A stretch of 64,000 nucleotides of DNA. Origin: Mycobacterium pseudokansasii (GTDB taxonomy: Bacteria; Actinomycetota; Actinomycetes; Mycobacteriales; Mycobacteriaceae). This document shows, piece after piece, positions 3,254-48,344 of the stretch. The notes under the pieces were generated by a model, which saw only the letters and a list, made by a program, of their open reading frames with translations, was not told the origin of the DNA and searched no databases. The stretch lies in contig NZ_UPHU01000001.1 of the NCBI RefSeq assembly GCF_900566075.1, positions 1,054,001 to 1,118,000 of the forward strand. Direction: 5' to 3'. The position numbers and the translations under genes are program-made. Numbering within the stretch: the stretch's first letter is position 1; every line of letters starts with the position of its first letter.

Positions 3254-4987
3254 ATGGCCGGTGAACCTTCTCTGACGGAACTGCTGCAGGAAATAGCCAA
3301 CCAGCACCCTGACCGCGACGCATACACTTTTATCGACTACGAGACCGACCCGAACGGCATTTCCGAAACCCTCACCTGGGGAGAAGTTCATCAACGAGCA
3401 CAAGTTGTTGCCGAAGAGCTCTTGATATGCGGCTCGAGCGGTGATCGGGCCGCCATCCTGGCCCCGCAGGGCCTTGAATACATTGTTGCTTTCTGGGGTG
3501 CACTCCACGCCGGATTCATAGCGGTTCCGTTGCCGTTTCCGCAGTTCGGCGTTCACGAGGAGCGGGTTTCTTCAGCGCTGCGAGATTGCGCTCCCTCGGT
3601 AATTCTCACGACCAGCGGCGCCGCTGCAGATGCCGTGAGGTACACGGGTGGTTGCAACGACGGTTCCGCCGCTTCAGCCATCGAGATCGATTCGCTGGAC
3701 ACCGAAGCGCTATGCCAATCGGAACCCAGGCGTTGCCCACCTTCCCAACCCGCGTATCTCCAATACACGTCGGGATCGACCGGTCGGCCCACCGGGGTCA
3801 TGATCTCGCATCGGAACGTGGTGGCCAATTTTCGGCAGTGGACGCGCGATTTGGCTGGCGGTCACCGTGGTGCGATAACCGCGGTCTCGTGGCTGCCGTT
3901 CTACCACGACTTGGGATTGATGATGGGACTTTGCCAGCCGATGCTGTCCGGCGGACACGCCGTGCTCATGAGTCCAGTGTCGTTCGTGCAACGGCCGGCT
4001 CGTTGGATGCAATTGGCAGCGACCAATGGGACCGTCTTAACGTCGGCGCCGAACTTTGCCTTCGAATTGGCGGCACGAAAAACCGCCGACGAGGACATGG
4101 CCGGGCTGGACCTTGGCGGCTTGCTGATTCTCTGCAGCGGTGGAGAGCGGGTACAGCCGGCAACCTTGGAGCGCTTCACGCGGCGGTTTGCGCCCTTCAA
4201 TCTGCCCGATACGGTGATACGGCCCACCTATGGGCTCGCCGAGACGGTGGTGTACGCGTCGACCCGAACACCGGCTCAGCCGCCGGACATCGTTCATTTC
4301 GACTCGGAGGAACTGTCCGCCGGGCGGGCTAAGCGGTGCCGGGATGGCGGTGCGGCGCTGGTCGGTTACGGGTTGGCGCAATCACCGCTGGTGCGGATCG
4401 TCGACCCCGAGACGCGGACCGAGTGTCCGGCGGGACGGACCGGCGAAATCTGGGTGCAGGGCGACAACGTCGCGATGGGGTACTGGCGCAATCCTGAAAA
4501 GACGGAACAAACATTCCGCGCCCGCCTGGTTAATCCGTCGACCGGCACGCCGGTCGGACCGTGGCTGCGAACCGGCGATTTAGGGGTCATTTCCGACGAC
4601 GAGTTGTTCATCATCGGCCGAATCAAGGATCTGCTGATCGTGGACGGGTCCAATCACTATCCGGACGACATCGAGGCGACCATTCACGAAATAACCAGGG
4701 GCCGGGCCGCGGCGGTGTCTGTTCCCAATGACGGGACCGAGCAGCTGGTCGCCATTGCCGAGGTCAAGCCAACCGGCATGTCCGATGAAGAGCAAAAGGA
4801 AAAGCTCCGAACGCTGAAGGGTGAAGTCACCTCGGCGATTTCGAACTCGCATGGCCTGCGCATCGCGGATCTCGTTTTTGTGACGCTTGGTTCGATTCCG
4901 ACCACGACCAGCGGCAAGGTTCGGCGTTCGGCCTGTGCCGAGCGTTATCGGCGGGATGAATTGGAGCGTGTCGAGGTCACGCCGTGA
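3254..4987 (+). CDS. Fatty acyl-AMP ligase, stand-alone
   Basis: 577-residue member of the FadD/FAAL branch of the ANL superfamily. It would activate a fatty acid as acyl-adenylate and hand it to an acyl carrier protein instead of CoA. The AMP-binding loop YTSGSTGRPTG lies at about residue 170 and the FAAL-typical WLPFYHDLGLM at about 212-225. The hinge region has RTGDLG, and the C-terminal catalytic lysine sits in TTSGKVRR (about residue 555). It overlaps the PKS gene by four bases (GTGA), indicating translational coupling. The natural acceptor is therefore the ACP at the N-terminus of that PKS, as FadD32 serves Pks13. Chain length cannot be read from the sequence. Confidence 0.93.
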   Translation: MAGEPSLTELLQEIANQHPDRDAYTFIDYETDPNGISETLTWGEVHQRAQVVAEELLICGSSGDRAAILAPQGLEYIVAFWGALHAGFIAVPLPFPQFGVHEERVSSALRDCAPSVILTTSGAAADAVRYTGGCNDGSAASAIEIDSLDTEALCQSEPRRCPPSQPAYLQYTSGSTGRPTGVMISHRNVVANFRQWTRDLAGGHRGAITAVSWLPFYHDLGLMMGLCQPMLSGGHAVLMSPVSFVQRPARWMQLAATNGTVLTSAPNFAFELAARKTADEDMAGLDLGGLLILCSGGERVQPATLERFTRRFAPFNLPDTVIRPTYGLAETVVYASTRTPAQPPDIVHFDSEELSAGRAKRCRDGGAALVGYGLAQSPLVRIVDPETRTECPAGRTGEIWVQGDNVAMGYWRNPEKTEQTFRARLVNPSTGTPVGPWLRTGDLGVISDDELFIIGRIKDLLIVDGSNHYPDDIEATIHEITRGRAAAVSVPNDGTEQLVAIAEVKPTGMSDEEQKEKLRTLKGEVTSAISNSHGLRIADLVFVTLGSIPTTTSGKVRRSACAERYRRDELERVEVTP

Positions 4988-7900
4988 CGGCGAGCCTTCC
5001 TGGCGATGTGGAACTTCGAAAGTGGCTGATCGATTACCTGGTAACCAACGTTGAGTGCAATGCGGATGGGATCGACCCAGACCTGTCGCTGAAGGACTTA
5101 GGGCTGGGCTCCCGGGATGTCATCAATATGTCGGGCGAGCTGGCCAAGCTGCTCGGTCGGCCGGTGTCGCCGGTGGACTGTTGGCAGCACCCGACGATCA
5201 ACGCTCTGGTCGCTTTTCTCACCACGACGGAGTCGGAATCTGTTGTGGACGAGGGTCATTCGATCAATCGTTGGGTCGACGAACCGATCGCGGTCATCGG
5301 CCTGGGCTGCCGGTTCCCGGGAGGGATTTCCGGGCCCGAAGCACTGTGGCAGTTTCTGTGGGAAGGTCGCTGTTCGATAGGTGAGGTTCCGGCTGATCGC
5401 TGGATGCCGTTCGATGACGGCTCGCCCGCGGTAGAACAAACCCTCGCCCGGACGACTCGGTGGGGCTCGTTCCTGAGCGACATCGACGCGTTTGATGCCG
5501 AGTTCTTCGAGATCTCCCCGAGCGAAGCCGCCAAGATGGATCCCCAGCAGCGACTGCTCCTGGAAGTGGCCTGGGAAGCCTTGGAGCACGCTGGGATTCC
5601 CGCGACGTCATTGCGGCGCTCGCAGACCGGAGTGTTCGCCGGCGCTTGTGTCAGCGAATATGGGCACCTGGCAGCCACCGATTTGCCCGGGGTTGATGCG
5701 TGGAACAACACCGGCGGTGCGTTGAGCATCATCGCCAATCGGTTGTCGTATTTCCTTGATCTGCACGGCCCGTCCGTTGCGGTGGATACCGCATGTTCGT
5801 CGTCGTTGGTGGCGATCCATCTGGCTTGTCAAAGCCTGCGGATGGGCGACTCGGACCTGGCCATTGCCGCGGGGGTCAATCTGCTGTTGTCGCCGGCGAT
5901 TTTCCACGGCTTCGATCAAGCCGGTGTCTTGTCGCCAACCGGTCGCTGTCATGCTTTTTCCGCGGATGCCGACGGCTTTGTGCGTGGCGAGGGCTGTGGC
6001 GTGGTGGTGCTCAAACGGCTCAATGACGCGCTGCGTGCCGGGGATCGGGTGCTCGCGGTGGTGCGCGGTTCGGCGGTCAATCAAGATGGCCGATCCAACG
6101 GGCTGATGGCTCCGAATCCGGCTGCTCAGATGGCGGTGCTGCGGGCCGCTTATGCCAACGCAGACGTGCCGCCGCGCGAGGTGGACTATGTGGAGGCGCA
6201 TGGGACCGGGACCTTGTTGGGTGATCCCATCGAGGCGCGTGCCCTGGGCAAGGTGTTGGGTCGCGGGCGCGCGGCCACCTCCCCGCTGTTGATCGGCTCC
6301 ATCAAGACGAATCTGGGACATTTCGAGGCGGCGGCGGGGGTCGCGGGTTTCATCAAGGCGGTGCTGGCGGTGCAGCGGGGCCGGCTGCCGGCGAGCTTGC
6401 ACTTCGAAACCCCCAACCCCCATATTGCTTTTGACCAGTTGCGGTTGAAAGTCGTTGCGGATCAGCAGGAGTGGCCGGCAGTGGGCCGACCCCGGCGGGC
6501 GGGAGTGTCGTCGTTTGGATTCGGCGGCACGAATGCACATGTGGTGTTGGAGCAAGCCCCCGAGCACGTTGGGGTGGTGCGCGAGCCGGACCCGGCCGTC
6601 GGCACGTTGGTGGTCTCGGGTAAGACGCCGCAGCGGATTGCGGCGGCGGCGGGGGTGTTGGCGGACTGGATGGCCGGTGCGGGTGCCGGGGTCGAGTTGG
6701 CGGAGGTGGCTCACACGCTCGCGCATCACCGGGTGCACCATTCCCGGTTTGCCACGGTGTGTGCCCGGGAACGGGCGCAGGCGGTGGCCGGGCTACGGGC
6801 GTTGGCAGCCGGCCGGGCGGTAACCGGGCTAGTCGGCCCGCATGAGGGGGCCTGCCGGACGGGCACGGTGTTCGTGTACTCGGGTCAGGGCTCGCAGTGG
6901 GCGGGAATGGGTCGGCAGTTGTTGGCCGACGAACCGGTTTTCGCGGCGGCGGTGGCCGAACTCGAGCCGATATTCGTCGAGCAGGTGGGGTTTTCGCTGC
7001 ATCAGGTACTGGCCGAGGCGCAGCCGGTGACCGGTGATGCGCGGGTTCAGCCGGTGATCATGGGACTGCAGCTGGCACTGACGCAGTTGTGGCGTTCTTA
7101 CGGGGTCCATCCGGATGCGGTGATCGGTCATTCGATGGGCGAGGTCACCGCGGCGGTGGTGGCCGAGGCGTTGACACCTGCCGAGGGGTTGCGGGTGATC
7201 GCGGTCCGATCGCGATTGATGGCGCGGCTGGCCGGCCAGGGCGCGGTGGCCCTGATAGAACTCGACGCCGAGGCCACGGCCGCGTTGCTCGACACCCATC
7301 CCGGGGTCAGCGCGGCGGGTTTCTTGTCGCCGCGGCAAACGGTGATCGCCGGACCCCCAACCGAGGTGGCCGCGGTGATCACCGAGGTGCAGCGGCAAGA
7401 CCGGTTTGCCCGGCGGGTCAACATGGAGGTCGCCTCGCATACCGCTTTGATGGATCCGATCCTGCCCGAGTGGCGTTCCGCGCTAGCCGATTTGGCCCCC
7501 AAGACGCCGATGATTCCGTTGCTCTCCACCGTCACAGGTACCGCCAACCCGCCGCTGGATGCCGACTATTGGGTGGCCAATCTCCGGCAACCGGTACTGC
7601 TGAGCGGGGCCATCACTGCCGCCGGGCAAGACCATGCGATCTTCATCGAAATCAGCCCGCACCCGATGCTGACGTATGCCATCACCGAAACGTTGGGATC
7701 GGAGATGCACCATCACAGCATTGGCACGCTGTGGCGTGACGGCGACGACACGCTGAGCTTCCACACCAACCTCAACGCTGCCAGCATCAGTCACCCGCCA
7801 CGCCTGCCGCATCCCTCCGGCCCGCATCCGGTGCTGCCGGCCACTCCTTGGCAGCATGAGCGGCACTGGCTTTCCGCCGGGTCGGCCACCGCCGCGGCGG

Positions 7901-10900
7901 TGGTGGGCCATCCGCTGTTGGGGGTCGGCGTTACCGATCCCACCAATGGAATTCGGGTGTGGGAACGCACGCTGACTCCCGATTACCTGTGGCTCGGCGA
8001 TCACCGTATAGATGGCAGCTGCGTCTTGCCGGGCGCGGCGTATATCGAGATGGCGTTGGCGGCGGCGACCGATGCGCATGGGACTGACCGCGATATGCCG
8101 TGGGAAGTTGTTGAGTTGTGCCTGCGCGAATTGATGCCGATCACCGAACCTACCGTCGTCGTCACGACACTGAGTGGTACCGCGTCCCGGCCGAGCGTGG
8201 AAATCCTTTCCGGAAGCCAGGATTCGGGGTGGACGCTGCATGCCAGCGCGGTGCTGGAGCGCGGCGTGCCGCGGGTCGTCGAACCGATTGACGTTGACGA
8301 CTCGTCGGTTACGGAGTTGGATGCCGACAGCCTTTATCACCGGTTGCGCAGTGCCGCTCAACAGCATGGTCCTGCTTTCCAGGGGGTGATCGGGCTCAGC
8401 GTATTCGGTTGCGGCGCGGCTCGGGCCGAGGTGCGGCTGCCATCGGTTGCCCGGCAGGGTGTGCGGCGGCTCCTGGCGCATCCGGTGATGGTCGATGTTG
8501 CGTTGCAGACACTTGGCGCGACCAAGCCGGCTACCGACCTTGGCGGTGCGCAGGGCACCGGGTCGATGGTGCTTCCGGCACGGTTTCGCGGTGTGCGGGT
8601 TTATGGAGATCTCACCGAAGGTGTTGCCGCGCTGGGGGTGCTGAGGCCGACGGCGGACCCGGATCGGTACGTAGGCCGAGTGGTGCTCACAGGCAGCCAG
8701 GGGCAGGCCTTGCTGGTGATCGATGAGATCGAGATGGCGGTGGTGCGGGCCGGGGCCGGCAACGAGGTGGCCGGTCACACGTTCACCTTGGCCTGGGAGC
8801 CGGTGGATGCGGATAAGCCGGCCGCTGCGGTGGGTGCGGTGTTGCTGGTGGGTGAACATGGTGCAGCTGACGGGTTGCTGGACGCGGTCCACGCAGGGCT
8901 TTCACGACGGGCGTCGCACTGTCAGGTGGTGCTGGCGGGGGATCGGGCCGGGCTTCAGGACGCGTTGACCGAAAGCGATGTGTGGTGGAGCGCGGTGGTG
9001 CTGGTGTGTCCACCGCGTTCGGTCGATGAGGCGTTGTCTGATTCTGCGCAGTTGGAGGTGGCGCAGTCGCGGACACTGTTGGTTGCCGACATTGTCAAGA
9101 GTTTGTCGCGGAGCGGTATTCGCGGTCGTCCGCGGTTGTGGATGGTGACCCGCGGAGCTCAGCACGTAGCTGCTGGTGAGCGGGTGACGTTGGCGCAGAC
9201 AACGCTTCGTGGCATGGCGCGGGTGTTGACGTTTGAGCATCCGGAGTTGCAGACCACCATCGTGGACGTTGATGCCGAAGCCGATATGTCGGCTGACGCG
9301 CTGGTTGATGAGTTGTGCGCCGATTGCGGCCACGATGAGGTGGCCTTGCGCAATGGGCAGCGGTACGTGAATCGCCTTGTCCGGGTACCGGTTTCGGCTA
9401 CCGGTGTCGTGGCTGCCGAGCGGCGTCCGGCGCTGGTCGATCTCGATCGTGGCGGCGCGGTGCGCTTGCAGACCGATCAGCCGGGGCGGTTGGGTGCGTT
9501 GGCGGTGCATGCGGCGCGGCGTATGCCGCTGGCAGCGGATCAGGTCGAGGTCCGGGTGGTGGCCGCTGGGCTCAACAGCAGCGACGTGCTCAAGGCGAAG
9601 GGTTTGTATCCCGCGTTGGACGACACGGTGGGCGACGGTGTGCCGGCGCTTGGCAGCGAATGCGTGGGATATGTGACCGGCCTTGGCGCTGCGGTGGATT
9701 CGGTTCAGCTGGGACAGCGGGTTATCGCGTTGGGGCCTGGTTCGCTTGCTTCGTATCTGACGACATCGGCCGATTTGGTAGTGCCGGTGCCGCAGGCGTT
9801 GTCGGATCATGAGGCGGCCGGCCTGAGTGTTGCCTACCTGACGGCGTGGCACGGATTGTGTGAGGTGGGGCGGCTTACGGCCGGGGAACGGGTGTTGATC
9901 CATTCGGCCGCCGGTGATGTCGGGTTGGCGGCGGTGTCGATCGCCAGGGTCGTCGGGGCGATCGTTTACGTGACGGCGAACTCGCCGGCCCAGCGTGAGA
10001 TGTTGACGCAGTTGGGTGTTGATTACGTCGGCGATTCGCACGGCTTGGGGTTCGCTGATGAGATAGCAGCGTCCACCGGGGGGCAAGGCGTCGACGTCAT
10101 CCTCAATTCGTCGGCCGAAGAAGCGATTCGGCGTCGTGGCATGGAGATCCTGGCTCCCGGTGGGCGATTCGTCGAACTCAGTAAACGCGACGGCTACGCC
10201 GGTGCGCAGCTGGAGCTGGCTGCGCTGGCCAGGAGTGCGTCTTTCGCAGTGGTCGATCTGGATGTGAATCTGAGATTGCGGTCGCGACGTTACCGTGAGC
10301 TGTTGCAAGAGATTCTGCAACAGGTGGTGGCCGGCGAGCTGCAGCCGCTCCCGGTCAGCGTATTCAGCCTCGACCAGGCCGTCGACGCCTTCGAGATGAT
10401 GGCTTCGGACACTCACATCGGCAAGATCGTGATCTCGATGCCGACCGCGGGAAGCATTGCAGCGCTTGCCTTCCCGCCCGCCCAACCGCTGGTCCGGGCC
10501 GATGGCGGCTACATCGTGGTGGGCGGCATGGGCGGGCTGGGCTTTGTCGTGGCGCGCTGGCTGGTCGCCGAGGGCGCGGGCCTGGTGGTGCTTAACGGGC
10601 GCTCGGCGCCCGGCGCCGAGGTTGCGGACGCGATTGCGGAAATGAACACCGGCCGACGCCGGGTGCAGGTCATCACCGGCGATATCGCCCAACCTGATAC
10701 CGCGGCGCGGTTGGTGGCCGCCGTCGAGGAAGCCGGACTGCGGCCGGCCGGTTTGTTGCACAGCGCGATGGTGTTGGCCGATGAGATCGTGTCGAACATG
10801 TCGGCGTCGGCGATGGCGCGAGTGTTCGCGCCAAAAGTGGCCGGCCACTGGTGGTTACACAAAGCCACCGCTCACCTCGACCTGGACTGGTGGTTGACCT

Positions 10901-11709: not shown

Positions 11710-11711
11710 GG

Positions 11712-14700: not shown

Positions 14701-17063
14701 CGGTAACGGGGCCGGAGTTCGTCGCCGCGCGGACGCCTGCTGAGAAGATCCTCACCGCGATCTGGTGTGAGGTGCTCGATCTGGAAACGGTTGGCGTGCA
14801 TGATGATTTCTTCTCCCTTGGCGGCTCCTCGAGCCACAGCCTGGAAGTCGCGGCGAAAGCGAATGCAGCCAACCTACCGTTGCGGCCGGAGTCGTTGTTC
14901 GTCTTCGGCACCATCGCCGAGCTGGCCGGCGAGTACGGCGGCAAGGCCACGCAGGACGTGCCAGAACCCGACGTGGCTAGAGCATCCGAGACATCCGAGC
15001 CCGGCAGCCAGGTCGTCGCAGCCGACTCTGCTCCGCCGGTGCCCGCTACCAGCCCGCAGACGCGTAACACGGTGATGGAAAGCATCGGTGTGTATCTGCC
15101 GGCGGGAGTGATGTCGACCGAGAGCGTCCTGGCAGGCTGCGTCAACGAGATCGGTATTCCGTTGGAACGTCTGACCGGAATCCGCAGCAGGCGGGTGGTC
15201 GGACCGGGCGAGTTCTCGATCGACCTGGCCCGAAATGCGATGGCCGACTGTCTGGCCCGGTCGAAGTATGCGCCTGACGAGATTGATCTGGTCATCTGCT
15301 GCAACATTTCCCGCTACGACGGACCCGGGCACAAGGTCGTGTTCGAGCCCAGCACCGCGGCGCGGCTTCGAGACCAATGCGGCCTTACCAATGCGATTGC
15401 CTTCGACGTTTCCAACGCATGCGCCGGGATGTTCACCGGTGTCGCCGTGGCCGATGCATTCCTGCAGGCCGGACTGGTCGAGTGCGCCATGGTCGTCAGT
15501 GGTGAATACATCAGCCACATCACCGAGACGGCGCAGCAGCAAATCGAGGGACCAATGGATCCGCGGCTCGCGTGCTTGACCGTTGGTGACGCCGGCGCCG
15601 CGGTGATCCTCGAGCGCGGCACCAATGACCGGGTCGGCTTTCACGACATCGACATGGCCACGCTGAGCCGGTACAGCACCCTTTGCATGGCCAAGGCAAG
15701 CGATGGTCCACACGGCGGCGCGATTATGACCACCGACTCGATCAACATCACCGCCACGGTGGTCAAGCGTTTACTGCCGTACACCGCCGCCGTGATGAGT
15801 CGACGCGGCTGGCGGCCTGAACACTGCGACCACATCGTCATACATCAGACATCAAAGGCATCGCTCAACGACGCGGTCGTGGCGATGAATGGGATGTTCG
15901 GCCCGGGTAGCGCCCAACCGGCCAGCGTCGTCAACAATCTGGGTGAACGGGGAAACACCGCCAGCACCACACACTTCGTGGCCCTCGGCGATCAGATCCG
16001 GGCCAATCGGATCAACCCAGGGGACAAAGTGCTGTTCAGTATCAGCGGCACCGGACAGACGATCGGCGCCGCCCTCTACACCTTCGACGACCTGCCGGCC
16101 CGAATGCGCAGGGCGCCCGAGGGTCAACACCACCACCACGGCTTCTCGGCCCGTCGACGGCGCCCGGAGCCACCACCGGGGCCCCGGGTGCGGATCGAAG
16201 GGGTCGGCACCGCCGCCGAGCAATCCCGGCCTCGGCGTGCAGTCGAGCTCGCGACGCAAGCCGCCAGACAGTGCCTCAGCCGGCGCGTCATGGATCCGGC
16301 ACAGCTCGAACTGATCCTCTACGCCGGGGTGTACCGGGAAGACTTCATCGCCGAACCGGCCATCGCGGCGTTGGTGGCCTGCGAACTCGGTGCTAACGTC
16401 GACATCGATTCTCCCGATGCGTCAAAGACTTTCGCCTTCGACGTGCTCAATGGCGCGGTCGGCTTCCTCAACGCGTGTCAAGTGGGCGTGCAGATGATCG
16501 GCGCTGGAAAAGCCGAACACGCGATGGTCGTGGCTGCCGAGATCGAAAATAACGGCGCCGACAGCGGGCACCCGTTGTATGGCGTCAGCGAGACGGGCTC
16601 CGCGGTGATTCTGGGCAGGTCCGACGGCAATTCAGGCTTCGGCCGGTTTGTCTTCCATCACCATCCGGAGTACGCCTCCGCACTGGAAACGTACTTGCAG
16701 CAAGGGGATGGACGCAGCTGGCTGCAGATCGACCGCGATCCGGACCTGTCGGCCCGCTACCTGGACTGCATCCCGGCCGCTGTCGAGGAACTGCTCAAGC
16801 TCGAAGAGCTGGACGGCTCCCAGATCGCGGCCGTGTTCCCTCCGCACCTGTCCCCGGCGGATCGCACCGAACTCGCCGCGCGCCTGAACATTCCGGTTTC
16901 ACGATTCATTGACCTCGCGACCGAATCCGATTTGTTCTCCTCGTGTCTGCCCTACGAACTGGAACACGCCTGGAGGCATCAGCTGGTCAGTCCGGGCGAT
17001 ATCGGGCTGGTCATCAGCGTCGGCTCCGGCATCGAGGTCGGTTGTGCCACCTACCGCTTCTGA
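11712..17063 (+). CDS. NRPS (C-A-PCP) fused to two KASIII-like domains
   Basis: 1783 residues from the ATG at 11712, preferred over a TTG at 11706 because GGGAG lies 7 bases before it. The N-terminal helix (LSAEEKRALLSRLLMEKA) could receive the PKS tail. Condensation domain about 39-470 has HHIAADFW at 164-171. Adenylation domain about 495-985 has HTSGSTGTPKG and pocket residues D-P-W-H-F-S-L-I-D-K, close to serine codes. PCP has the LGGSS attachment site (Ser1040 likely). Then come a KASIII domain (about 1122-1467) with Cys1237, His1378 and Asn1415, a His/Arg-rich linker, and a second KASIII fold (about 1493-1783) in which the Cys position is Ala1582 and the Asn is lost. No TE or reductase release domain follows. 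It likely joins the PKS acyl chain to serine and releases or acylates through the KASIII pair. Confidence 0.9.
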   Translation: MTDRSSEKSIDITKLSAEEKRALLSRLLMEKAQASASAHPLSYGQRSLWFLYQLAPGNPAYTLSYAGRISGEVDVAALERAAQALVERHAILRTTFVVRDGQPVQLVHPHWPVRIVRQDVDAGEVDEWIRQESHRAFDLKTGPVFRLTLLRQSPHEHVLVLAVHHIAADFWSVDVILDDLCKLYAAQHGADAPAVSPERYVGYADRQTQMLSSTEGDRLWHYWRAQLAGDLPKLGLPTDRPRPAAPSLRSALRRFSVDGRLASDLREVARGAGATPYMTFLAAFATLLHRYTGQDDLLIGSPFACRDRVGMEGLVGYVANTVVLRAELHGDPTFSSLLGRVKQTVLGALAHQDYPFALLVERLRPSRDLSSTPIVQVSFAWEQSRRFQRAAGGDLGPEALELETLHVGQGGAAFDLMIQVADAGGEFTCDLHYNSDLFDDATIERMVGHFTTLLDGIVTDPAGRLSELPLLTELERRQQAAWNDTRVCYDAPDCLHEMVAQTARRSPHTVAVSFADQEMTYGQLDDQANALAHRLRGLGVGPDSIVPVLLDRSADLVVALLGVLKAGGAFMPLDPAQPANRIAAMIGNVPDALVCVTHRRHLQSLPGFTGHRLCLDLPMTPADGVAAAAGTHGCGRAASLAYVVHTSGSTGTPKGALNTHGGIRNRLLWMQATYQLTPADRVLHKTPISFDPSIWEIFWPLIVGARLVIAEPEVHKDPAALVRTIVEQAVTTVHFVPSMLRSFLAQPGATECVRLRRVFCSGEVLPGDLQDRFLDTLDAELYNLYGPTEAAIDVTHYHCKRGESRSPVPIGRPIANIRIHLLDAHQHPVPVGVPGELCIGGVGVARGYLNQPDATAASFLTDPFAEVPGGLLYRTGDRARYLPDGNIEYMGRLDNQVKISGVRIEPGEVEAALLKHPGVSDSAVVADTDSRGNPRLVAHIVATQDAVPSVAELRRFLLDQLPAAMVPAVFSMVESLPHTSSGKVDRRALKAARQAAPVTGPEFVAARTPAEKILTAIWCEVLDLETVGVHDDFFSLGGSSSHSLEVAAKANAANLPLRPESLFVFGTIAELAGEYGGKATQDVPEPDVARASETSEPGSQVVAADSAPPVPATSPQTRNTVMESIGVYLPAGVMSTESVLAGCVNEIGIPLERLTGIRSRRVVGPGEFSIDLARNAMADCLARSKYAPDEIDLVICCNISRYDGPGHKVVFEPSTAARLRDQCGLTNAIAFDVSNACAGMFTGVAVADAFLQAGLVECAMVVSGEYISHITETAQQQIEGPMDPRLACLTVGDAGAAVILERGTNDRVGFHDIDMATLSRYSTLCMAKASDGPHGGAIMTTDSINITATVVKRLLPYTAAVMSRRGWRPEHCDHIVIHQTSKASLNDAVVAMNGMFGPGSAQPASVVNNLGERGNTASTTHFVALGDQIRANRINPGDKVLFSISGTGQTIGAALYTFDDLPARMRRAPEGQHHHHGFSARRRRPEPPPGPRVRIEGVGTAAEQSRPRRAVELATQAARQCLSRRVMDPAQLELILYAGVYREDFIAEPAIAALVACELGANVDIDSPDASKTFAFDVLNGAVGFLNACQVGVQMIGAGKAEHAMVVAAEIENNGADSGHPLYGVSETGSAVILGRSDGNSGFGRFVFHHHPEYASALETYLQQGDGRSWLQIDRDPDLSARYLDCIPAAVEELLKLEELDGSQIAAVFPPHLSPADRTELAARLNIPVSRFIDLATESDLFSSCLPYELEHAWRHQLVSPGDIGLVISVGSGIEVGCATYRF

Positions 17064-17198
17064 TGCCGATGTTGACTGCCGTTACGGGAAGAACGGCAAC
17101 CCACGAACGATCCGCGCAGTTGCCGGCCGAACCGGCGATGTGTTTGGTCGCCACAATGTTGTTGTGTTGTGCTGCAACATGAAAGGCCGCGGTCCGTC

Positions 17199-18443
17199 AT
17201 GAAATTTGCCCTGGTCTCCTACGGAACGCGCGGAGATGTCGAGCCCTGCGCAGCGGTCGCGCTGGAGCTGTTGCGGCGGGGCCACGACGTGCGTATTGCA
17301 GTGCCGCCCAACTTGCTTGGCTTTGCCGAGTCGGTCGGGCTTACGGCGGTCCCCTACGGGCCGGACTCGCGGGAGCAACAGAAGGACGATTTCGCCAAGG
17401 ACTTCTGGAAGATGATCCGGACTCCGACCACGTTTCTGCACAAGGGCAGAGATTTCATCACCAGGGGTTGGGCCGAGATGAGCGCAACACTGACAGCTCT
17501 GGCGCGCGATGCCGATCTCATCATGTCAAGCTGGATGTACCCCGGGATCGCCGCCAATGTTGGCGAATACTATGGCATTCCGGTTGCTATGCTGAATTTC
17601 GCTCCACTGCAAGTCAATAGCCGACTCTTGCCGAGCCTTCCCGCTCCGTTGGGCCGCGGCGCGCTTTCGGCGGCCTGGTGGATGTACTGGAGGATGACGA
17701 AGGAAGCCGAGGCGGCGCAACGCCGTGAATTGGGTTTGCCAACAGCGACGCCCTCGGCGGGACGACGAAACGGCGAGCGGGGATCGCTTGAGATCCAAGC
17801 CTACGACGAGCTGCTATTTCCCGGGCTGGCAGCCGAATGGGCTGGGCGGTGGCCCTTTGTTGGTGCGCTAACGATGGAATTGGCAACGGATGTCGACAAC
17901 GAGGTCGCGTCGTGGATTGCCGCCGGCGCGCCGCCGATCTACTTCGGATTCGGCAGTAGGCCGGTCAAATCGATCGCAGACCTGATCGCCATGATCAGCG
18001 CATCCTGCGAAAAGCTGGGTGAGCGGGCGCTGATTTGCACCGGCGAGAATGATTTCACCGCGACTCCGGATCGCGACCATGTCAAAGTTGTTCGCGCGGT
18101 GAGCCACGCGGCCATTTTTCCCGCGTGCCGCGCGGTGGTCCACCACGGTGGAGCCGGCACCACGTCCGCGGGTTTGCGGGCCGGCGTCCCGACGTTGATC
18201 CTGTGGTTCACTTCCGACCAGCCGATGTTTGCGGCCGCGGTCAAGCGGCTCAACGTTGGCACTGGCCGGCGTTTCTCTAATGTCACGCAGGAATCGCTGG
18301 TCGCCGACTTGAGTGCCATCCTCACACCAGAACGCGGCGGCCGTGCGCGCGAAATCGCCGCCCGGATGAGCAAACCCGCCGACAGTATCGCCGCCACCGC
18401 CGACGCGTTGGAAGATGCGGCTCGCCTGAGGCGGTTTGGCTGA
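17199..18443 (+). CDS. GT1-type glycosyltransferase (GPL/rhamnosyltransferase-like)
   Basis: 414 residues from the ATG at 17199, which gives the canonical family start MKFALVSYGTRGDVEP. It resembles the mycobacterial glycosyltransferases of the Rv1524 / Rv1526c / glycopeptidolipid Gtf type. The C-terminal nucleotide-sugar motif HHGGAGTTSAGLRAGVPTL is intact, as is YFGFGSRPV. These enzymes transfer a sugar, often a deoxyhexose, to a lipid or peptidolipid hydroxyl. It stands 135 bases after the NRPS in the same direction, so the cluster product is probably glycosylated. Sugar and acceptor cannot be read from sequence. Confidence 0.9.
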   Translation: MKFALVSYGTRGDVEPCAAVALELLRRGHDVRIAVPPNLLGFAESVGLTAVPYGPDSREQQKDDFAKDFWKMIRTPTTFLHKGRDFITRGWAEMSATLTALARDADLIMSSWMYPGIAANVGEYYGIPVAMLNFAPLQVNSRLLPSLPAPLGRGALSAAWWMYWRMTKEAEAAQRRELGLPTATPSAGRRNGERGSLEIQAYDELLFPGLAAEWAGRWPFVGALTMELATDVDNEVASWIAAGAPPIYFGFGSRPVKSIADLIAMISASCEKLGERALICTGENDFTATPDRDHVKVVRAVSHAAIFPACRAVVHHGGAGTTSAGLRAGVPTLILWFTSDQPMFAAAVKRLNVGTGRRFSNVTQESLVADLSAILTPERGGRAREIAARMSKPADSIAATADALEDAARLRRFG

Positions 18444-18566
18444 TGGACATACCCGCTTCGCCGAGGTGGGTTTCGCAACGACGGACCCGATGGCGTCAGG
18501 GAGCCGGTCGTGGTGGGGGTGGCGCCGGCTGGCACGACGACCCAACAACCGGATTGCCATCGGAGC

Positions 18567-18572
18567 AAGGAG
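18567..18572 (+). promoter_or_regulatory. Strong ribosome binding site of the FAAL-ACP gene
   Basis: AAGGAG, 6 bases before the ATG at 18579. The 135-base gap upstream of this gene shows no clear promoter or terminator hairpin, so readthrough from the glycosyltransferase is likely. Confidence 0.6.
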
Positions 18573-18578
18573 TAGTAG

Positions 18579-20840
18579 ATGCCGACAGATAGCGTGTTCC
18601 CGGCTCCACCAACCTTGTCAGACCTTGTGCGTGGTAACGCCGAAAGCTATTCAGACAAGGTTGCATTCGACTATTGCCGGTATTCCCCCAACGGGGAAGA
18701 ACATAGCCAGCTAACCTATCGCGAACTCGACATCAAGGCGCGTGCGATCGCGTCGATCTTGCAACAACAGGGCGCTGCGGGCGAACGGGTACTGGTCCTC
18801 TGTCCCTCGGGTCTGGATTTTATCGCCGGCTTCTTCGGGTGTATCCACGCCGGGGCCGTCGCTGTACCGGTGCATCCACCGGTTCGCGACCGGGTGATTG
18901 GGCGCGTGGCGTCGATTATCGCGGATGTGCAAGCGCGCTTCGTGCTTACCACCGCGGAAGTCCAAGCGAAGGTCAAGAATGTGGTGGACGGCTTGGCCGA
19001 CGGGAGTTCCCTGCAGTGGTGTGCCGTAGACACCGTCAACCCGCAATCCGCCACGGAGTGGATCACACCGGACATCGACCCGAGCGCAATCGCTTTCGTG
19101 CAGTACACCTCGGGTTCTACGAGCACACCAAAAGGCGTGATGGTGACGCACCGAAACCTGCTGTCCAACCTGGAGACCATCCGTAGGGCCACGGGCTGGG
19201 TCGACTCGTACGTCGCGGTGTCCTGGCTGCCGCCGCATCACGACATGGGCCTTATCAGCATGATTCTCGGGACGATTTGCTTTGGGGGCAGTTGCTTCTT
19301 GATGCCGCCCGAAGCTTTCATCGAACGCCCAATGCGTTGGCTCGAAGCGCTTTCCCGTTATGGCGGCACGATCACCGCTGCACCGAATTTCGCCTACGAC
19401 CTGTGTGTCGAACGCAGCAGCGAACAGGAACGCGCCGCGCTCGACCTCTCAAAGTGGTTGTTAGCCGTGTGTGCCGCCGAGCCGGTGCGCGCCGCTACCT
19501 TGGACCGGTTCGCCGATGCCTTCGGCCCCAGCGGCTTCCAGCCGGAGGCGTTCAAACCGGCGTACGGTCTGGCGGAGGCGACACTGCTGGCATCCGGTCA
19601 GGCCGATTGGATCGTCCCGCTCGTCCGACACGTCGATCCTGTTGCGCTGCGCGAGCACCACGTGGTAGGCGTCTCGCCGGCGCACCCGGCCGCCGTCACG
19701 CTCGTAGGCTGCGGTCCCGCACTGTACGACGTGGAAGTGGTTATCGTCGATCCGGACACCCGACGGTCCTGTGCGGACGGCGAAGTCGGCGAGATCTGGC
19801 TCGCCGGCGGCGGTATCGCGCAGGGATATTGGGGCGAACCGATCGAGACGGAAGAGACATTCTCGGCGTTCCTCGCCGATACCGGGCGCGGACCGTTCCT
19901 ACGCACCGGGGACCTGGGGTTCTTCCTGGACGGCGAGCTGTTCGTCACGGGGCGGCTCAAGGACCTCGTCATCATCCGCGGCCGCAACTACTACGCCGAA
20001 GACATCGAGGCCACGGTGCAGGACAGCCATGCGGCGCTGCTGCGCGGGCGGGGTGCGGCGTTCTCGGTAATGCCGTCAGCCAATGACGCCGAACAGCTCA
20101 TCGTCGTACAGGAGGTGGATCGCGAGCGGATCCGCGAAGCCGACGTCGGCGCGGTTATCGCCGCAATTCGTGCCGCGGTCACCGAGGACCATGAGATTCA
20201 GGCGCACGCCGTCTTATTGGTGGAGCCGCTGCGGATCCCGACAACCTCGAGCGGAAAGATCCGGCGAAACGCCTGCCGGCAACGGTTCCTCGACGGCGGC
20301 CTCGAGGTTTTCGCGCAGTGGCACATGCCGCGCGATCCGCAGCCGGCCGTATCGCCTACCGAGCCGACTCCACTGCACGCCGGGCGTGCCGAGATCTCAG
20401 AGTGGTTTGTTTCCAGGCTTTCTCTCGAGCTTGGCCTATCACCGGCTGAGATCGACACATCGTTGCCGCTCGCGCACTACGGTCTTGATTCGATCCGTGC
20501 CATCCGGTTGACCGCAGCAATGGAAACCTGGCTCGGACGTGAGCTCTCGCCCACGCTGACGCAGGAGTACCCGACGATCGACCTGTTGTCCGGACATTTG
20601 GCCGAGCCTGCCGCAGCGGTGGAGACAGCCAGTGGCTCCGCGAGCCCAGCCGAACCGTTCGCCGCCGTCGGCATCGGCTGCCGGCTGGACCCCGCCGGCG
20701 GGTCGTCGGAGGTCACCGATATCGCCGGCTCAGGGTGGATGGACCTGCTTGGCCGGATGCCGAAGATTTCCGACGACCATGTCGACGAACTGCTGCGTCA
20801 GGTCATGGCCGCCAACGATCACCAGGACGAGCAGGCCTGA
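18579..20840 (+). CDS. Fatty acyl-AMP ligase fused to an acyl carrier protein
   Basis: 753 residues. The FAAL part (about 1-590) has YTSGSTSTPKG near residue 177, WLPPHHDMGL, RTGDLGF and the C-terminal lysine in TTSSGKIRR (about 555). A carrier domain follows at about 600-680 with phosphopantetheine Ser638 (YGLDSIRAI). A loader of this type activates a fatty acid and mounts it on its own ACP in cis. The last 34 residues end in ISDDHVDELLRQVMAA, almost the same as the C-terminal helix of the PKS, which suggests both dock to the same partner. This is the second acyl-activating enzyme in the cluster, so the product may carry two acyl chains, or this may be an alternative starter. Confidence 0.92.
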   Translation: MPTDSVFPAPPTLSDLVRGNAESYSDKVAFDYCRYSPNGEEHSQLTYRELDIKARAIASILQQQGAAGERVLVLCPSGLDFIAGFFGCIHAGAVAVPVHPPVRDRVIGRVASIIADVQARFVLTTAEVQAKVKNVVDGLADGSSLQWCAVDTVNPQSATEWITPDIDPSAIAFVQYTSGSTSTPKGVMVTHRNLLSNLETIRRATGWVDSYVAVSWLPPHHDMGLISMILGTICFGGSCFLMPPEAFIERPMRWLEALSRYGGTITAAPNFAYDLCVERSSEQERAALDLSKWLLAVCAAEPVRAATLDRFADAFGPSGFQPEAFKPAYGLAEATLLASGQADWIVPLVRHVDPVALREHHVVGVSPAHPAAVTLVGCGPALYDVEVVIVDPDTRRSCADGEVGEIWLAGGGIAQGYWGEPIETEETFSAFLADTGRGPFLRTGDLGFFLDGELFVTGRLKDLVIIRGRNYYAEDIEATVQDSHAALLRGRGAAFSVMPSANDAEQLIVVQEVDRERIREADVGAVIAAIRAAVTEDHEIQAHAVLLVEPLRIPTTSSGKIRRNACRQRFLDGGLEVFAQWHMPRDPQPAVSPTEPTPLHAGRAEISEWFVSRLSLELGLSPAEIDTSLPLAHYGLDSIRAIRLTAAMETWLGRELSPTLTQEYPTIDLLSGHLAEPAAAVETASGSASPAEPFAAVGIGCRLDPAGGSSEVTDIAGSGWMDLLGRMPKISDDHVDELLRQVMAANDHQDEQA

Positions 20841-20915
20841 TCCGCAGCTATCGCGGCAGCGCTGGCCACGGTTGCCGCAACTGACGACGCAAATCGGGCA
20901 AATCACATCGGAGGA

Positions 20916-22496
20916 ATGAGACAAGCACATATGCGCCGGACTGGGTCAACGTATGACGCCATCGTCGTCGGCTCCGGAGCTGCTGGCTCGTGGGCTGTCA
21001 AAGAGCTGACGGAAGGCGGCCTGAGGGTGGTCCTGCTCGAGGCCGGCCGGAACCTGGATATCGCGCGCGACTTTCCTGCCGACGCCGACTTGAAATTTAG
21101 TGGGATTGCGCCACGCGTCAAGTCGGCGATCAATGGCCAACATGTTCAGGCGCGATCGCCAGCTTTTTCCGAGACTACAAAGCGGTTCTATGTCAACGAC
21201 CGGGAGAACCCGTATACATCGGCACCAGGAAATACGTTCCTCTGGTTCAGGGGCCGACAACTCGGCGGCCGCCTTCACACGTGGTATCGACATGCACCGC
21301 GGATGTCGAATTACGAATTCAAAGCCGCAAGTGTCCGCGGAGACGGCGTCGACTGGCCATTGTCGTACGAAGATCTGGCACCGTACTACGATATCGTCGA
21401 ACGGACGCTCGGAGTCCACGGAGAATCCGCAGGAATTCCAAATTGCCCGGATGGCCAGTTCATCGGACGTGCGAAAACAACAAAGGTCGAAGAGACGTTT
21501 CTGTCCCGAGTCGAGAAGCGTCTCCCGGGGCTTCGCGTGACGTACGCAAGGAAGGTCAAGTACGACAACGAGCGGATTCCGCTTCCCGCCAGAGTCGCCC
21601 GGGCAACAGGCCGCCTCGACATACGGACGGACGCCGTCGTGAGCCGGTTGCTCATCGATGCGCGAACGGGGAAGGCGACCGGCGTCGAATACATCGAGCG
21701 ATTGACGGGGAATCCGCAGCTGGTTTACGGGAAAGTCGTCGTCCTCTGCGCGTCGACAATCGAAAGCGTGCGGATTCTTCTGAACTCGGCTTGCGCCAGG
21801 CATCCGTCCGGTGTCGGCGGATCGTCGGGCAATCTCGGTCGCTATCTGTGCGACCACGTGGTGCATACGCTTGTTGGCACAGTGCCCAAAAGGGATGTCG
21901 AGCCCGGTACGAACGCGGATGGCTTCGATTTTGGAAACGTTGGACTCTACATCCCGAGCTTCTGCGAAAAGGAATCAACAAACTTTCCCGGCGGCTACGG
22001 CATCCAGATGTCGATCGGCCGCGGGCGACCGTGGTGGGCCATGACCGCGTTCGGCGAAATGCAGCCTCGATACCAAAATCATGTGTCGCTCGACCCGACC
22101 GTCACAGACGCGTGGGGGATTCCAGTGGCTCATATCTCGTGTAGCTATTCTCGGCCTGAGTTCAATATGATTGCCCATATGAGGCAGCGGCTCCCAGAAA
22201 TTGCGGTCGCCGGCGGCCTCAAGGTCGACAAGATCTTCAATCGCCTGCTTCGTTCTAGTTTTCTCTGCCGGCCTGGAGTGGCCATTCACGAGACCGGCGG
22301 CGCGCGCATGGGCGACAAACCCGAAAACTCGGTGTTGAATTCGTACTGTCAGTGCTGGGACGCGGACAACGTGTTCGTGACCGACGGCGCATGCTTTGTC
22401 CACCCCGGATTCCAGAATCCCACGCTCACGATCATGGCTCTCACGGTTCGAGCGTGTCGATTCATCGTTGGTGACTATGCGAAGTATGTGAACTGA
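20916..22496 (+). CDS. GMC-family FAD-dependent oxidoreductase
   Basis: 526 residues. The N-terminal FAD-binding fold is YDAIVVGSGAAGSWAVKEL with acidic LLEAG at the end of the second strand. The GMC C-terminal domain ends in HETGGARMG and HPGFQNPTLTIMALTVR, which carries the catalytic His and Asn. Such enzymes oxidise alcohols or sugars. The start is uncertain: GGAGG at 20910-20914 is 1 base from ATG 20916 and 16 bases from ATG 20931, and the FAD motif would suit either. The gene looks less GC-rich than the PKS and NRPS genes before it, hinting at separate acquisition. The next gene begins directly after its stop codon. Confidence 0.88.
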   Translation: MRQAHMRRTGSTYDAIVVGSGAAGSWAVKELTEGGLRVVLLEAGRNLDIARDFPADADLKFSGIAPRVKSAINGQHVQARSPAFSETTKRFYVNDRENPYTSAPGNTFLWFRGRQLGGRLHTWYRHAPRMSNYEFKAASVRGDGVDWPLSYEDLAPYYDIVERTLGVHGESAGIPNCPDGQFIGRAKTTKVEETFLSRVEKRLPGLRVTYARKVKYDNERIPLPARVARATGRLDIRTDAVVSRLLIDARTGKATGVEYIERLTGNPQLVYGKVVVLCASTIESVRILLNSACARHPSGVGGSSGNLGRYLCDHVVHTLVGTVPKRDVEPGTNADGFDFGNVGLYIPSFCEKESTNFPGGYGIQMSIGRGRPWWAMTAFGEMQPRYQNHVSLDPTVTDAWGIPVAHISCSYSRPEFNMIAHMRQRLPEIAVAGGLKVDKIFNRLLRSSFLCRPGVAIHETGGARMGDKPENSVLNSYCQCWDADNVFVTDGACFVHPGFQNPTLTIMALTVRACRFIVGDYAKYVN

Positions 22497-23483
22497 ATGG
22501 AGTACGGAAAGGTTGCCGGGATCGATAAACCCGTCTCGCGAATCGTCTTCGGCACCGATCGCCTGCGGAGCACGCTATTGCAGTCGCTACCCAATCGAGG
22601 CCGTGAGCAACAGGTGTTCTCGCTTTTAGATCGGACCTTCGAACTCGGGTGCAACTCCTTCGACACGGCACGCTTATATTGGGACAGCGAACGGACGCTG
22701 GGGGTATGGATTCGGGAACGCCGGAATCGCGACGACGTGGTGGTCATCAGCAAGGGATGTCATCCCACGCTGTTGTCAAAACGCCCGCGGCTGTCTGCGT
22801 CAGACGTCACCCGCGACCTGCACGCATCCCTCAAAGCGCTCGGCACCGATTTCATTGATCTGTATCTGCTCCACTACGACCACCCCGGTGCGCAAATCGA
22901 ACCGCTCATGGAACGGCTCAACCGTCACATTGACGAAGGCAAAATCACCGCTATAGGTGCGTCGAACTGGTCGCACGAGCGAATTGCTGACGCCAATGCG
23001 CTCGCCATCAGCCAGCGGCTGAAACCGTTCACCGCGTCGAGCGCTCAATTCAGCCTTGCCGACTGGACACGACCTCTGTGGCCTGGAGCGGTCACCCTCG
23101 GGGGGGACGGCCAGCATGCCGCACGGGAATGGTATTCGATGCACGGGCTATCAGTGTTCGCGTGGTCCAGCCTTGGCCGCGGATTCTTTTCAGATCACTT
23201 CGACCCGAAGCATCCGGCCGCCAATCGCGTGAGCCGGCGGTGTACCGCCCACTTCGGCGCCGATGAGAACATCAAAAAGCTGGAGCGCACAAGGATATTC
23301 GCGCGCGAGCATCGGGTCACCGTCGCACAGGTCGCGCTTGCCTACGTGCTGCGCCACCCGCTTGAGGTGTTTGCCGTGGTCGGCTGCACGACGTTTGAGA
23401 AATTCGCCGAGAACGCGGCGGCATTGTCCCTGAAGCTGGACGAAGAGACGCTCCACTGGCTCGCGACAGGAATGAGTGAATAG
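22497..23483 (+). CDS. Aldo/keto reductase
   Basis: 328-residue NAD(P)H-dependent aldo-keto reductase. The catalytic tetrad is visible: Asp in SFDTARLYWDSE with its following Tyr, Lys in VVISKGCH, and His in LLHYDHP. The (beta/alpha)8 C-terminal region has VTVAQVALAYVLRHP. Its ATG directly abuts the TGA of the GMC oxidoreductase gene, so the two are surely co-translated and may act in sequence, for instance oxidation then stereochemically inverted reduction of a hydroxyl in a sugar or lipid. Base composition resembles the GMC gene. It is the last gene of the cluster. Confidence 0.9.
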   Translation: MEYGKVAGIDKPVSRIVFGTDRLRSTLLQSLPNRGREQQVFSLLDRTFELGCNSFDTARLYWDSERTLGVWIRERRNRDDVVVISKGCHPTLLSKRPRLSASDVTRDLHASLKALGTDFIDLYLLHYDHPGAQIEPLMERLNRHIDEGKITAIGASNWSHERIADANALAISQRLKPFTASSAQFSLADWTRPLWPGAVTLGGDGQHAAREWYSMHGLSVFAWSSLGRGFFSDHFDPKHPAANRVSRRCTAHFGADENIKKLERTRIFAREHRVTVAQVALAYVLRHPLEVFAVVGCTTFEKFAENAAALSLKLDEETLHWLATGMSE

Positions 23484-24454: not shown

Positions 24455-24772
24455 ATGAAGGTCCACAAGGGCGACACCGTGCTGGTGATTGCCGGTAAAG
24501 ACAAAGGAGCAAAGGGCAAGGTTTTGCAGGCGTACCCGGACCGTAACCGGGTCCTGGTCGAGGGAGTCAACCGGATCAAGAAGCACACCGCGGTTTCCAC
24601 CAACCAGCGTGGCGCCAGGTCGGGCGGGATCGTCACCCAGGAGGCCCCGATCCACGTCTCCAACGTGATGGTCGTCGACTCCGACGGCAATCCCACCCGA
24701 ATCGGCTACCGGGTCGACGAGGAGACCGGCAAACGGGTCCGTATTTCGAAGCGCAACGGCAAGGACATCTGA
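24455..24772 (+). CDS. rplX: 50S ribosomal protein L24
   Basis: 105 residues with the N-terminal KOW motif ([21 protein letters not shown]). L24 is an assembly-initiating protein of the large subunit. The ATG directly follows the rplN stop, and its own TGA overlaps the rplE ATG by one base, so translation is coupled. Full length for actinobacteria. Confidence 0.98.
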
Positions 24773-25335
24773 TGACCACTGCAGAGAAGACCCTGCCGCG
24801 TCTAAAAGAGCGCTACCGCAACGAGATCCGCGACACGCTGCAAAAGGAGTTCGGCTACCGCAACGTCATGCAGATCCCGACCGTGACCAAGGTCGTGGTC
24901 AACATGGGCGTCGGTGAGGCCGCTCGGGACGCCAAGTTGATCAATGGCGCGGTCAACGACCTGGCACTGATCACCGGGCAGCGCCCGGAAATCCGCCGGG
25001 CACGTAAGTCCATAGCGCAGTTCAAATTGCGTGAGGGCATGCCGGTCGGCGTACGCGTCACGCTGCGCGGAGACCGGATGTGGGAGTTCCTCGACCGGCT
25101 CACGTCGATCGCATTGCCGCGTATCCGCGACTTCCGCGGGTTGTCGCCCAAGCAATTCGACGGAGTGGGCAACTACACCTTCGGACTGGCCGAGCAGTCG
25201 GTGTTCCACGAGATCGACGTGGACAAGATCGACCGGGTGCGCGGCATGGACATCAACGTCGTCACCTCGGCGACAACCGACGAGGAAGGACGAGTGCTGT
25301 TGCGGGCCCTCGGCTTTCCCTTCAAGGAGAACTGA
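24772..25335 (+). CDS. rplE: 50S ribosomal protein L5
   Basis: 187 residues, full length. Contacts 5S rRNA and the P-site tRNA. Recognised by [40 protein letters not shown] and the end [10 protein letters not shown]. Start overlaps the rplX stop by one base; rpsN1 follows after 4 bases. Confidence 0.98.
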
Positions 25336-48339: not shown

Positions 48340-48344
48340 AACCC

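Follow-up and report, generated by a model that had tools for sequence, protein, structure and literature searches.

Gene content of the cluster

The sequence analysed here is a 64,000-nucleotide stretch of Mycobacterium pseudokansasii DNA (assembly GCF_900566075.1, contig NZ_UPHU01000001.1, positions 1,054,001 to 1,118,000 of the forward strand), referred to below as the window, and the source genome is 6.43 Mb in two contigs. Between positions 3254 and 23483 the plus strand carries a biosynthetic cluster of seven open reading frames (ORFs), in which an ORF check revealed no internal stops. They encode, in order, a fatty acyl-AMP ligase (FAAL1), a polyketide synthase (PKS), a nonribosomal peptide synthetase (NRPS) ending in two 3-ketoacyl-ACP synthase III (KASIII) folds, a glycosyltransferase (GT), a second ligase joined to an acyl carrier protein (FAAL2-ACP), a GMC oxidoreductase and an aldo-keto reductase (AKR). 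The layout is operon-like and, given the listed starts, the FAAL1, PKS and NRPS genes overlap successively by 4 bases. An initial annotation, made from the letters alone, had assigned these same-strand genes to a glycosylated lipid-amino acid product; they were found intact where it had placed them, and the FAAL, PKS, NRPS and GT domains seen agree with that direction. The features are as follows.

3254..4987, plus strand: FAAL1, presumed loader of the PKS (PF00501 and PF23024; closest PDB entries FadD23 and FadD28)
4984..11709, plus strand: PKS, ACP-KS-AT-DH-ER-KR-ACP, fully reducing (Pfam; KS, DH, ER and KR motifs intact)
11620..11706, plus strand: C-terminal tail of the PKS (WIELLTQVPQVSDDDVDELLRQV...), a presumed docking element from comparison with the FAAL2-ACP tail
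11706..17063, plus strand: NRPS, C-A-T followed by tandem KASIII domains KAS1-KAS2 (Pfam; TTG start listed, ATG possible at 11712)
11739..11810, plus strand: N-terminal helix of the NRPS (IDITKLSAEEKRALLSRLL...), putatively for docking, alike across many family members in the alignment
11826..13145, plus strand: condensation domain, HHxxxD intact (Pfam, motif check)
13209..14660, plus strand: adenylation domain, code DPWHFSLIDK, serine-type (Pfam, alignment)
14751..14927, plus strand: thiolation (carrier) domain (Pfam; Ser in 51/51 aligned NRPS-KAS proteins)
15072..16091, plus strand: KAS1, the triad-bearing KASIII, with C1239, H1380, N1417 and E1214 in NRPS numbering (alignment)
16176..17060, plus strand: KAS2, the Cys-less KASIII partner, with E1550 retained and G1583 at the Cys position (alignment)
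17169..18443, plus strand: GT1-type glycosyltransferase (Pfam; nearest solved GtfB, GtfD and GtfA)
18579..20840, plus strand: FAAL2-ACP, second fatty-acid loading protein (Pfam, homologue comparison)
20652..20693, plus strand: remnant like a KS N-terminus (EPFAAVGIGCRLDP) within FAAL2, interpreted, from comparison with a 1688-aa M. attenuatum homologue, as a scar left by a lost PKS module
20736..20819, plus strand: FAAL2-ACP tail, with the motif of the PKS tail (sequence comparison)
20916..22496, plus strand: GMC oxidoreductase (Pfam; nearest solved glucose/fructose dehydrogenases and pyranose oxidase)
22497..23483, plus strand: AKR, directly abutting the GMC gene (Pfam)

The choice of Stachelhaus positions and the assignment of DPWHFSLIDK to serine are our assumption, under which the serine-type adenylation domain of the initial annotation stands; the VASH motif in the AT domain of the PKS is likewise taken by us to be methylmalonyl-type. 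As had been claimed, no TE or MmpL domain was detected by Pfam in the seven proteins. The same analysis showed no condensation-type domain beyond that of the NRPS, no OleC or OleD homologue and no alpha-oxoamine synthase domain dependent on pyridoxal phosphate (PLP), the rest of the genome not having been searched for the last.

Residues and relationships of the tandem KASIII domains

Relatives were drawn from a named collection, in which 143 pattern-matching stretches gave 106 encoding a relative, of which 80 were kept, making 79 loci. The residue table has 51 rows, namely 50 loci with ORFs longer than 1200 aa out of 74 in the NRPS-KAS cluster, together with the M. pseudokansasii protein; it omits truncated and stand-alone forms, and 20 members including stand-alone ones were inspected separately. 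One weak member (L117, 31%), whose interval contains stops, was left out of the structure alignment. It is clear from this table that the Cys, His, Asn and Glu of KAS1 and the Glu of KAS2 are invariant in all 51 proteins, while the Cys position of KAS2 is occupied by Gly in 50 and by Ser in one.

For reference, 12 actinobacterial proteins scoring over the cut-off of NCBIfam NF006720, which we take to be the OleA model, were collected (12/198 genomes). Next to all 12 lies a gene matching the OleB-type hydrolase from a Bacteroidota locus (L108), and next to 11 of them one matching its OleC, which supports taking NF006720 as the OleA model. A Glu-Pro pair was present in every one of these references, in the same column as the Glu-Pro of KAS1 and of KAS2; the FabH of M. 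pseudokansasii has Thr-Pro there. In OleA, the catalytic base at each active site is a Glu contributed by the neighbouring subunit; this mechanism is described as unique to OleA homologues, and Glu117-Pro occurs in all but two of the OleA proteins aligned in that study (PMC7064751, in the part available). The enzyme LstAB is a KASIII heterodimer for which C128, H271 and N305 of LstA and E60 of LstB are required (PMC12141560, from the accessible portion).

Two trees were built, one of 63 sequences (24 members, 27 having been named by hand; 11 of the 12 OleA references, one being too short; and four others) and a second with 11 members, by FastTree with a single FabH outgroup. KAS1 grouped with the active subunit of split KASIII pairs (support 0.998), KAS2 with their Cys-less subunit (0.989), and KAS1, KAS2 and OleA came together with a support of 0.879, in a FastTree reconstruction rooted on a single FabH and not including LstA or LstB. 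One of these split pairs (L201) shares its operon with the gene for an OleC-type ligase.

These data suggest that the KASIII pair appears, by its residues, to be a fused heterodimer of the OleA/LstAB type, with the whole arrangement in one chain. Speaking against this assignment, the NF006720 cut-off of 285 was not reached by either half (KAS1 126 bits, KAS2 61 bits); with 136 bits, the active subunit of the split pair L201 falls short of it too, and the model may therefore serve homodimeric OleA only. An AlphaFold model of the KAS1-KAS2 pair was obtained with pLDDT 90 and pTM 0.93, and in the fold comparison OleA, FabH and PqsD tied, giving no discrimination. Since residues of the OleA/LstAB type are found in 51/51 proteins, formation of a C-C bond would be expected, not mere release of an acyl-serine. 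The two KASIII folds noted at the end of the NRPS by the initial annotation are thus present, but their head-to-head residues had escaped it.

Two acyl lines probably leading to one protein

The PKS and FAAL2-ACP end in near-identical C-terminal tails. A long ORF lies just upstream of the NRPS-KAS gene in 36/38 mycobacterial named loci, and the tail of these 36 ORFs showed the motif DDxVDxLL/M strictly in 21 and in a looser form in nine; in the remaining six, which had neither, a similar SDxxV[DE] tail is visible. Because the tails match, it is probable that the two acyl lines of M. pseudokansasii have one and the same NRPS-KAS protein as their docking partner, which argues for two chains. The one or two acyl chains originally predicted are accordingly sharpened to probably two.

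Both annotated FAALs are present as well; it had been missed, however, that FAAL2-ACP seems to be what remains of a FAAL-PKS fusion. Residues 1-708 of FAAL2 (753 aa) match the 1688-aa M. attenuatum protein (80%) and residues 600-751 match the C-terminal end of that protein (39%), and between the matches FAAL2 retains the EPFAAVGIGCRLDP stretch, which resembles the beginning of a KS (EPIAVIGIGCRFPG in M. attenuatum). As FAAL2 matches both ends of its homologue and keeps this scar, a KS-AT-ACP module seems to have been lost from a FAAL2-PKS ancestor with the tail retained. The M. persicum FAAL2 is also short (755 aa). The other mycobacterial clusters inspected have one FAAL-PKS line only, so that a second chain, if any, would there come from another source.

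Proposed pathway and product

We propose, with a probability of about 0.58, that the operon directs the synthesis of a serine-headed glycolipid with two chains through head-to-head C-C coupling, both the product and the activity being predicted from sequence. FAAL1 would charge the N-terminal ACP of the PKS, whose domains would be expected to extend and fully reduce the chain with a presumed extender unit; the PKS tail would then dock on the NRPS, and the condensation domain would transfer the chain to serine, the probable substrate, held by the A and T domains. FAAL2-ACP would supply a second, unextended acyl chain, presumably docking by the same tail. KAS1 would accept the N-acyl-serine on C1239, and E1550 of KAS2 would take a proton from the second acyl-ACP at its alpha carbon, whereupon this acyl-ACP would attack in a non-decarboxylative Claisen condensation as in OleA/LstAB. 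Such a coupling would also release the chain, and this would explain the missing TE. The FAAL2 chain is the likelier attacker, because an alpha-methyl chain, as suggested for the PKS product by the methylmalonyl-type VASH motif, would be a poorer nucleophile.

The product of the coupling would be a 2-alkyl-3-oxo-4-acylamino-5-hydroxy acid, from which decarboxylation would give an N-acyl-aminoketone resembling 3-ketoceramide; with the acid retained, an alpha-alkyl-statine-like compound would result. The ketone might be reduced, here perhaps by the AKR, and an SDR gene neighbours most of the serine-code mycobacterial relatives. The GT would finally attach a sugar, which the GMC enzyme, perhaps together with the AKR, could oxidise or epimerise. 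The GMC and AKR proteins may instead edit the sugar, since the nearest solved relatives of the former are sugar dehydrogenases and pyranose oxidase and the AKR gene abuts the GMC gene.

A broader reading was considered, which we put forward only tentatively and regard as somewhat doubtful. On this reading the cluster would build sphingoid-type glycolipids on an NRPS template and independently of PLP: N-acyl-serine and a second fatty acid would give a 3-ketoceramide that is reduced and glycosylated. The same pair, working with other amino acids, would produce a broad and so far overlooked family of amino-acid lipids with two chains, not only in mycobacteria and Nocardia but also in at least five further phyla. 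If the coupling mechanism holds, an NRPS line would end in a fused OleA/LstAB-type enzyme joining its chain to a second acyl chain by a C-C bond; peptide synthetases would be linked to olefin/beta-lactone chemistry, a second biological route to ceramide-like lipids might exist, and a new glycolipid would be predicted in the M. kansasii complex.

Alternative functions of the KASIII pair

FabH proteins lead the sequence matches of the pair, and for pepstatin a statine pathway that includes both NRPS and PKS genes has been described (PMC12081711, in its accessible part). On this basis the pair could work in the manner of FabH, condensing an N-acyl-serine thioester decarboxylatively with malonyl-ACP to a statine-like product with one chain. 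Such chemistry, however, makes a Cys-less partner unnecessary and leaves FAAL2-ACP without a role, and the FabH of the same genome has no Glu in the Glu-Pro column; we consider it improbable. A plain FabH was likewise set aside on account of the Glu-Pro signature, the Cys-less partner and the tree, in spite of the leading FabH matches. A function like that of CerJ, which is among the weak PDB matches, was also weighed, whereby the pair would esterify serine or another hydroxyl and yield an N,O-diacyl-serine glycolipid with no new C-C bond. Serine provides the hydroxyl and the protein seems to receive acyl chains from two lines, but a Glu-Pro in each half and a partner lacking the Cys are features of OleA/LstAB, and clades with what we take to be Gly-like codes retain the same KASIII residues, which makes an acyltransferase of this kind quite unlikely.

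The coupling could also be followed by closure of a beta-lactone or a tetramate/tetronate/pyrone-like ring, either by an OleC-like ligase encoded elsewhere or by spontaneous attack, and the product would then be a lipstatin-like inhibitor, not a membrane-type lipid. The OleC-type ligase beside the split pair of L201 and the OleB/C/D-type genes adjoining the pair in L075 and L108 are in favour of this, as are the KASIII homologues CorB and MxnB, which join two polyketide chains into a pyrone (PMC12304814, in the portion available). Against it, no OleC/OleD homologue is found among the seven genes and the OleC of L108, used as a query, had no match in the M. pseudokansasii genome at E 1e-80, so that a ring product appears unlikely. 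We retain head-to-head coupling to a two-chain serine-headed glycolipid as the preferred interpretation.

Comparison with known systems

PqsBC is also a two-subunit KASIII condensing enzyme, presumably with one inactive subunit, but its solved entries match the pair less well than OleA does. The pair resembles LstAB in having one triad-bearing half and another half with the needed Glu, as far as the available LstAB text describes it, and in grouping with split pairs, one of which lies beside an OleC-type ligase. In contrast to LstAB, to which it is likened by description, its two halves form a single chain with a C-A-T NRPS module, its substrates are presumed to be a carrier-bound acyl-amino acid and an acyl-ACP in place of two acyl-CoAs, and OleC/OleD are missing from the cluster. 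With OleA it shares the Cys-His-Asn and Glu-Pro residues, and two of its Bacteroidota relatives have OleB/C/D-type genes adjoining the pair; OleA, however, is a homodimer (PMC7064751, part available) without an NRPS.

KASIII enzymes joining two chains are already known (LstAB; CorB/MxnB, PMC12304814, same portion); what appears to be new is the fusion to an NRPS, of which searches of an open-access library gave no example. The CorB/MxnB and malleicyprol chain fusions differ in that polyketide chains are joined to pyrone or butenolide products, and a fusion of a KASIII pair with a peptide synthetase is not described in the available parts of that literature. The bacterial ceramide pathway (Spt, bCerS, CerR) likewise combines serine with two acyl chains, using Spt and a free acyltransferase, whereas here the NRPS and KASIII would do both. 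Oxidised ceramide, which is analogous to the proposed ketone, accumulates upon deletion of cerR in Caulobacter (PMC11087976, available part), so a ketone-type substrate for a reductase has a precedent. Mycobacterial glycopeptidolipids also rely on an NRPS, a PKS acyl chain and a glycosyltransferase, but have a tripeptide-amino alcohol core (PMC3537567, in part), while the present NRPS is a single C-A-T module, for one amino acid, and MmpL is absent from the seven proteins.

Genomic place of the cluster

The neighbours of the cluster in the window are the following.

11-901: FGE-sulfatase gene, upstream of the cluster
998-1909 and 2006-2965: two DUF4436 genes, upstream of the cluster
From about 24086: rplN, followed by rplX (24455) and rplE (24772-25335), ribosomal genes downstream of the cluster

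The DUF4436 genes stand in tandem (998-2965); in M. tuberculosis there is, we presume, one such gene at the corresponding place, and Rv0713 and rplN presumably adjoin. These neighbours confirmed the annotated position between the DUF4436 genes, on the Rv0713 side, and rplN. In a survey of this place a region match was obtained in 57/61 genomes and 30 loci were taken, one of them being that of M. pseudokansasii, with 1.5 kb upstream of rplN examined (less in L125 and L128). Neither the AKR nor any other cluster gene was present in these stretches of the 29 other loci; a DUF4436 gene was found in 5/29, the FGE gene without DUF4436 in 10/29 and neither was seen in 14/29. Among the 79 loci, with flanks of up to 10 kb, rplN was near the KASIII pair only in M. 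persicum (L039). The location thus appears to be derived.

The M. persicum protein is the nearest named relative, with 95% identity across the KASIII part, and a flanking DUF4436 gene of M. persicum (L156) is 98% identical to that of M. pseudokansasii. In M. attenuatum the order is GMC-AKR-FAAL1-PKS-NRPS/KAS-GT-FAAL2/PKS, and no rplN was found in the stretches examined. The G+C content at third codon positions was 0.68-0.79 in the seven cluster genes against 0.82-0.85 in four flanking genes, which fits an acquisition of the cluster. Its gain at the rplN place in the lineage of M. persicum and M. pseudokansasii is the simplest reading.

Adenylation codes, gene neighbours and spread of relatives

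A serine-type code was found in 35/50 loci, 30 of them mycobacterial, and the remaining codes were Gly-like (e.g. DILQLGMIWK), Asn-like, Gln-like or without assignment, these names being our own presumption. As the KASIII residues are the same in the clades without a serine code, they are not tied to serine alone. An extended short-chain dehydrogenase/reductase (SDR) gene begins, in the same orientation, no more than 200 bp downstream in 25/35 serine-code loci, and one is found within 2.5 kb on either strand in 28/35, all of the latter mycobacterial, with none near the five serine-code loci outside mycobacteria (0/5). Non-serine-code loci with enough sequence (14/15) had the SDR in 1/14 and an ABC/FtsX exporter within 0.7 kb in 7/14, against 0/35 serine-code loci for the exporter; these are plain locus tallies without correction for shared descent. 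The tabulated mycobacterial non-serine loci (L042, L049, L051, L066, L068, L069 and L109) have the exporter within 0.7 kb in 7/7 and no SDR. M. pseudokansasii, M. persicum and M. attenuatum carry the AKR in place of the SDR. A reading of the mycobacterial SDR beside serine-code members as an OleD was not supported, that of L052 giving 98.7 bits to OleD (cut-off 580); it scored 279 bits to HpnA (cut-off 367.65), and its best matches in the M. pseudokansasii genome were at most 36% identical, none within the cluster.

A search with the KASIII pair at E 1e-100, following a check suggested in the initial annotation, found it in 32/297 genomes of the genus, M. pseudokansasii included. The NRPS-KASIII protein is thus not confined to this place, nor do its relatives occur in mycobacteria alone. 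The 79 loci, with taxa as deposited and many being contigs of metagenome-assembled genomes, comprise 38 mycobacterial, 2 Nocardia and 39 other loci, the last from Bacteroidota, Planctomycetota, Lentisphaerae, Chloroflexi/Ktedonobacteria, Acidobacteriota and others, and carriers of relatives of the pair include cultured organisms from a number of phyla, for example Flavihumibacter and Pontibacter (L079 and L090), which have a stand-alone pair; the fused protein occurs in Ktedonospora. Twelve Bacteroidota loci encode the pair as a protein of its own, next to a divergent FAAL/luciferase-like operon, with a P450 gene behind, and a phosphopantetheinyl transferase is also present in 10 of these. Two Bacteroidota loci, L108 and L075, have OleB/OleC/OleD-type genes and then the pair; the L108 proteins scored 634 bits to OleC (cut-off 850) and 417 bits to OleD (cut-off 580), both below the NCBIfam thresholds.

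Literature and other KASIII loci

No report of this cluster, its product or an NRPS-KASIII fusion was found in full-text searches of an open-access library. The available parts of two papers on the M. kansasii complex make no mention of polyketide, NRPS or nonribosomal terms, and those of a FAAL review mention no OleA, KAS or FabH and those of a paper on an M. abscessus lipooctapeptide no KAS, FAAL or FabH.

Elsewhere in the window, at 45969-50371, a gene for a thiamine pyrophosphate enzyme (45969-47693), another KASIII gene with an NGGC active-site motif (47913-49364) and a PLP aminotransferase gene (49208-50371) follow a zf-HC2 gene, which we take to be rslA-like. A split KASIII pair, with one triad-bearing and one Cys-less subunit and Glu-Pro in both, was seen near a universal-stress gene in L155 (M. 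pseudokansasii genome, C1:3963838-3965734) and in L190. Where this pair is found on a Rhodococcus plasmid, its neighbours are universal-stress, trehalose-phosphatase, wax-ester synthase, DUF1876 and hydrogenase genes, a setting that looks like a dormancy-type locus. L201, from a genome of the same family, with its split pair, its OleC-type ligase and an MMPL-type transporter further on, is possibly a beta-lactone lipid locus.

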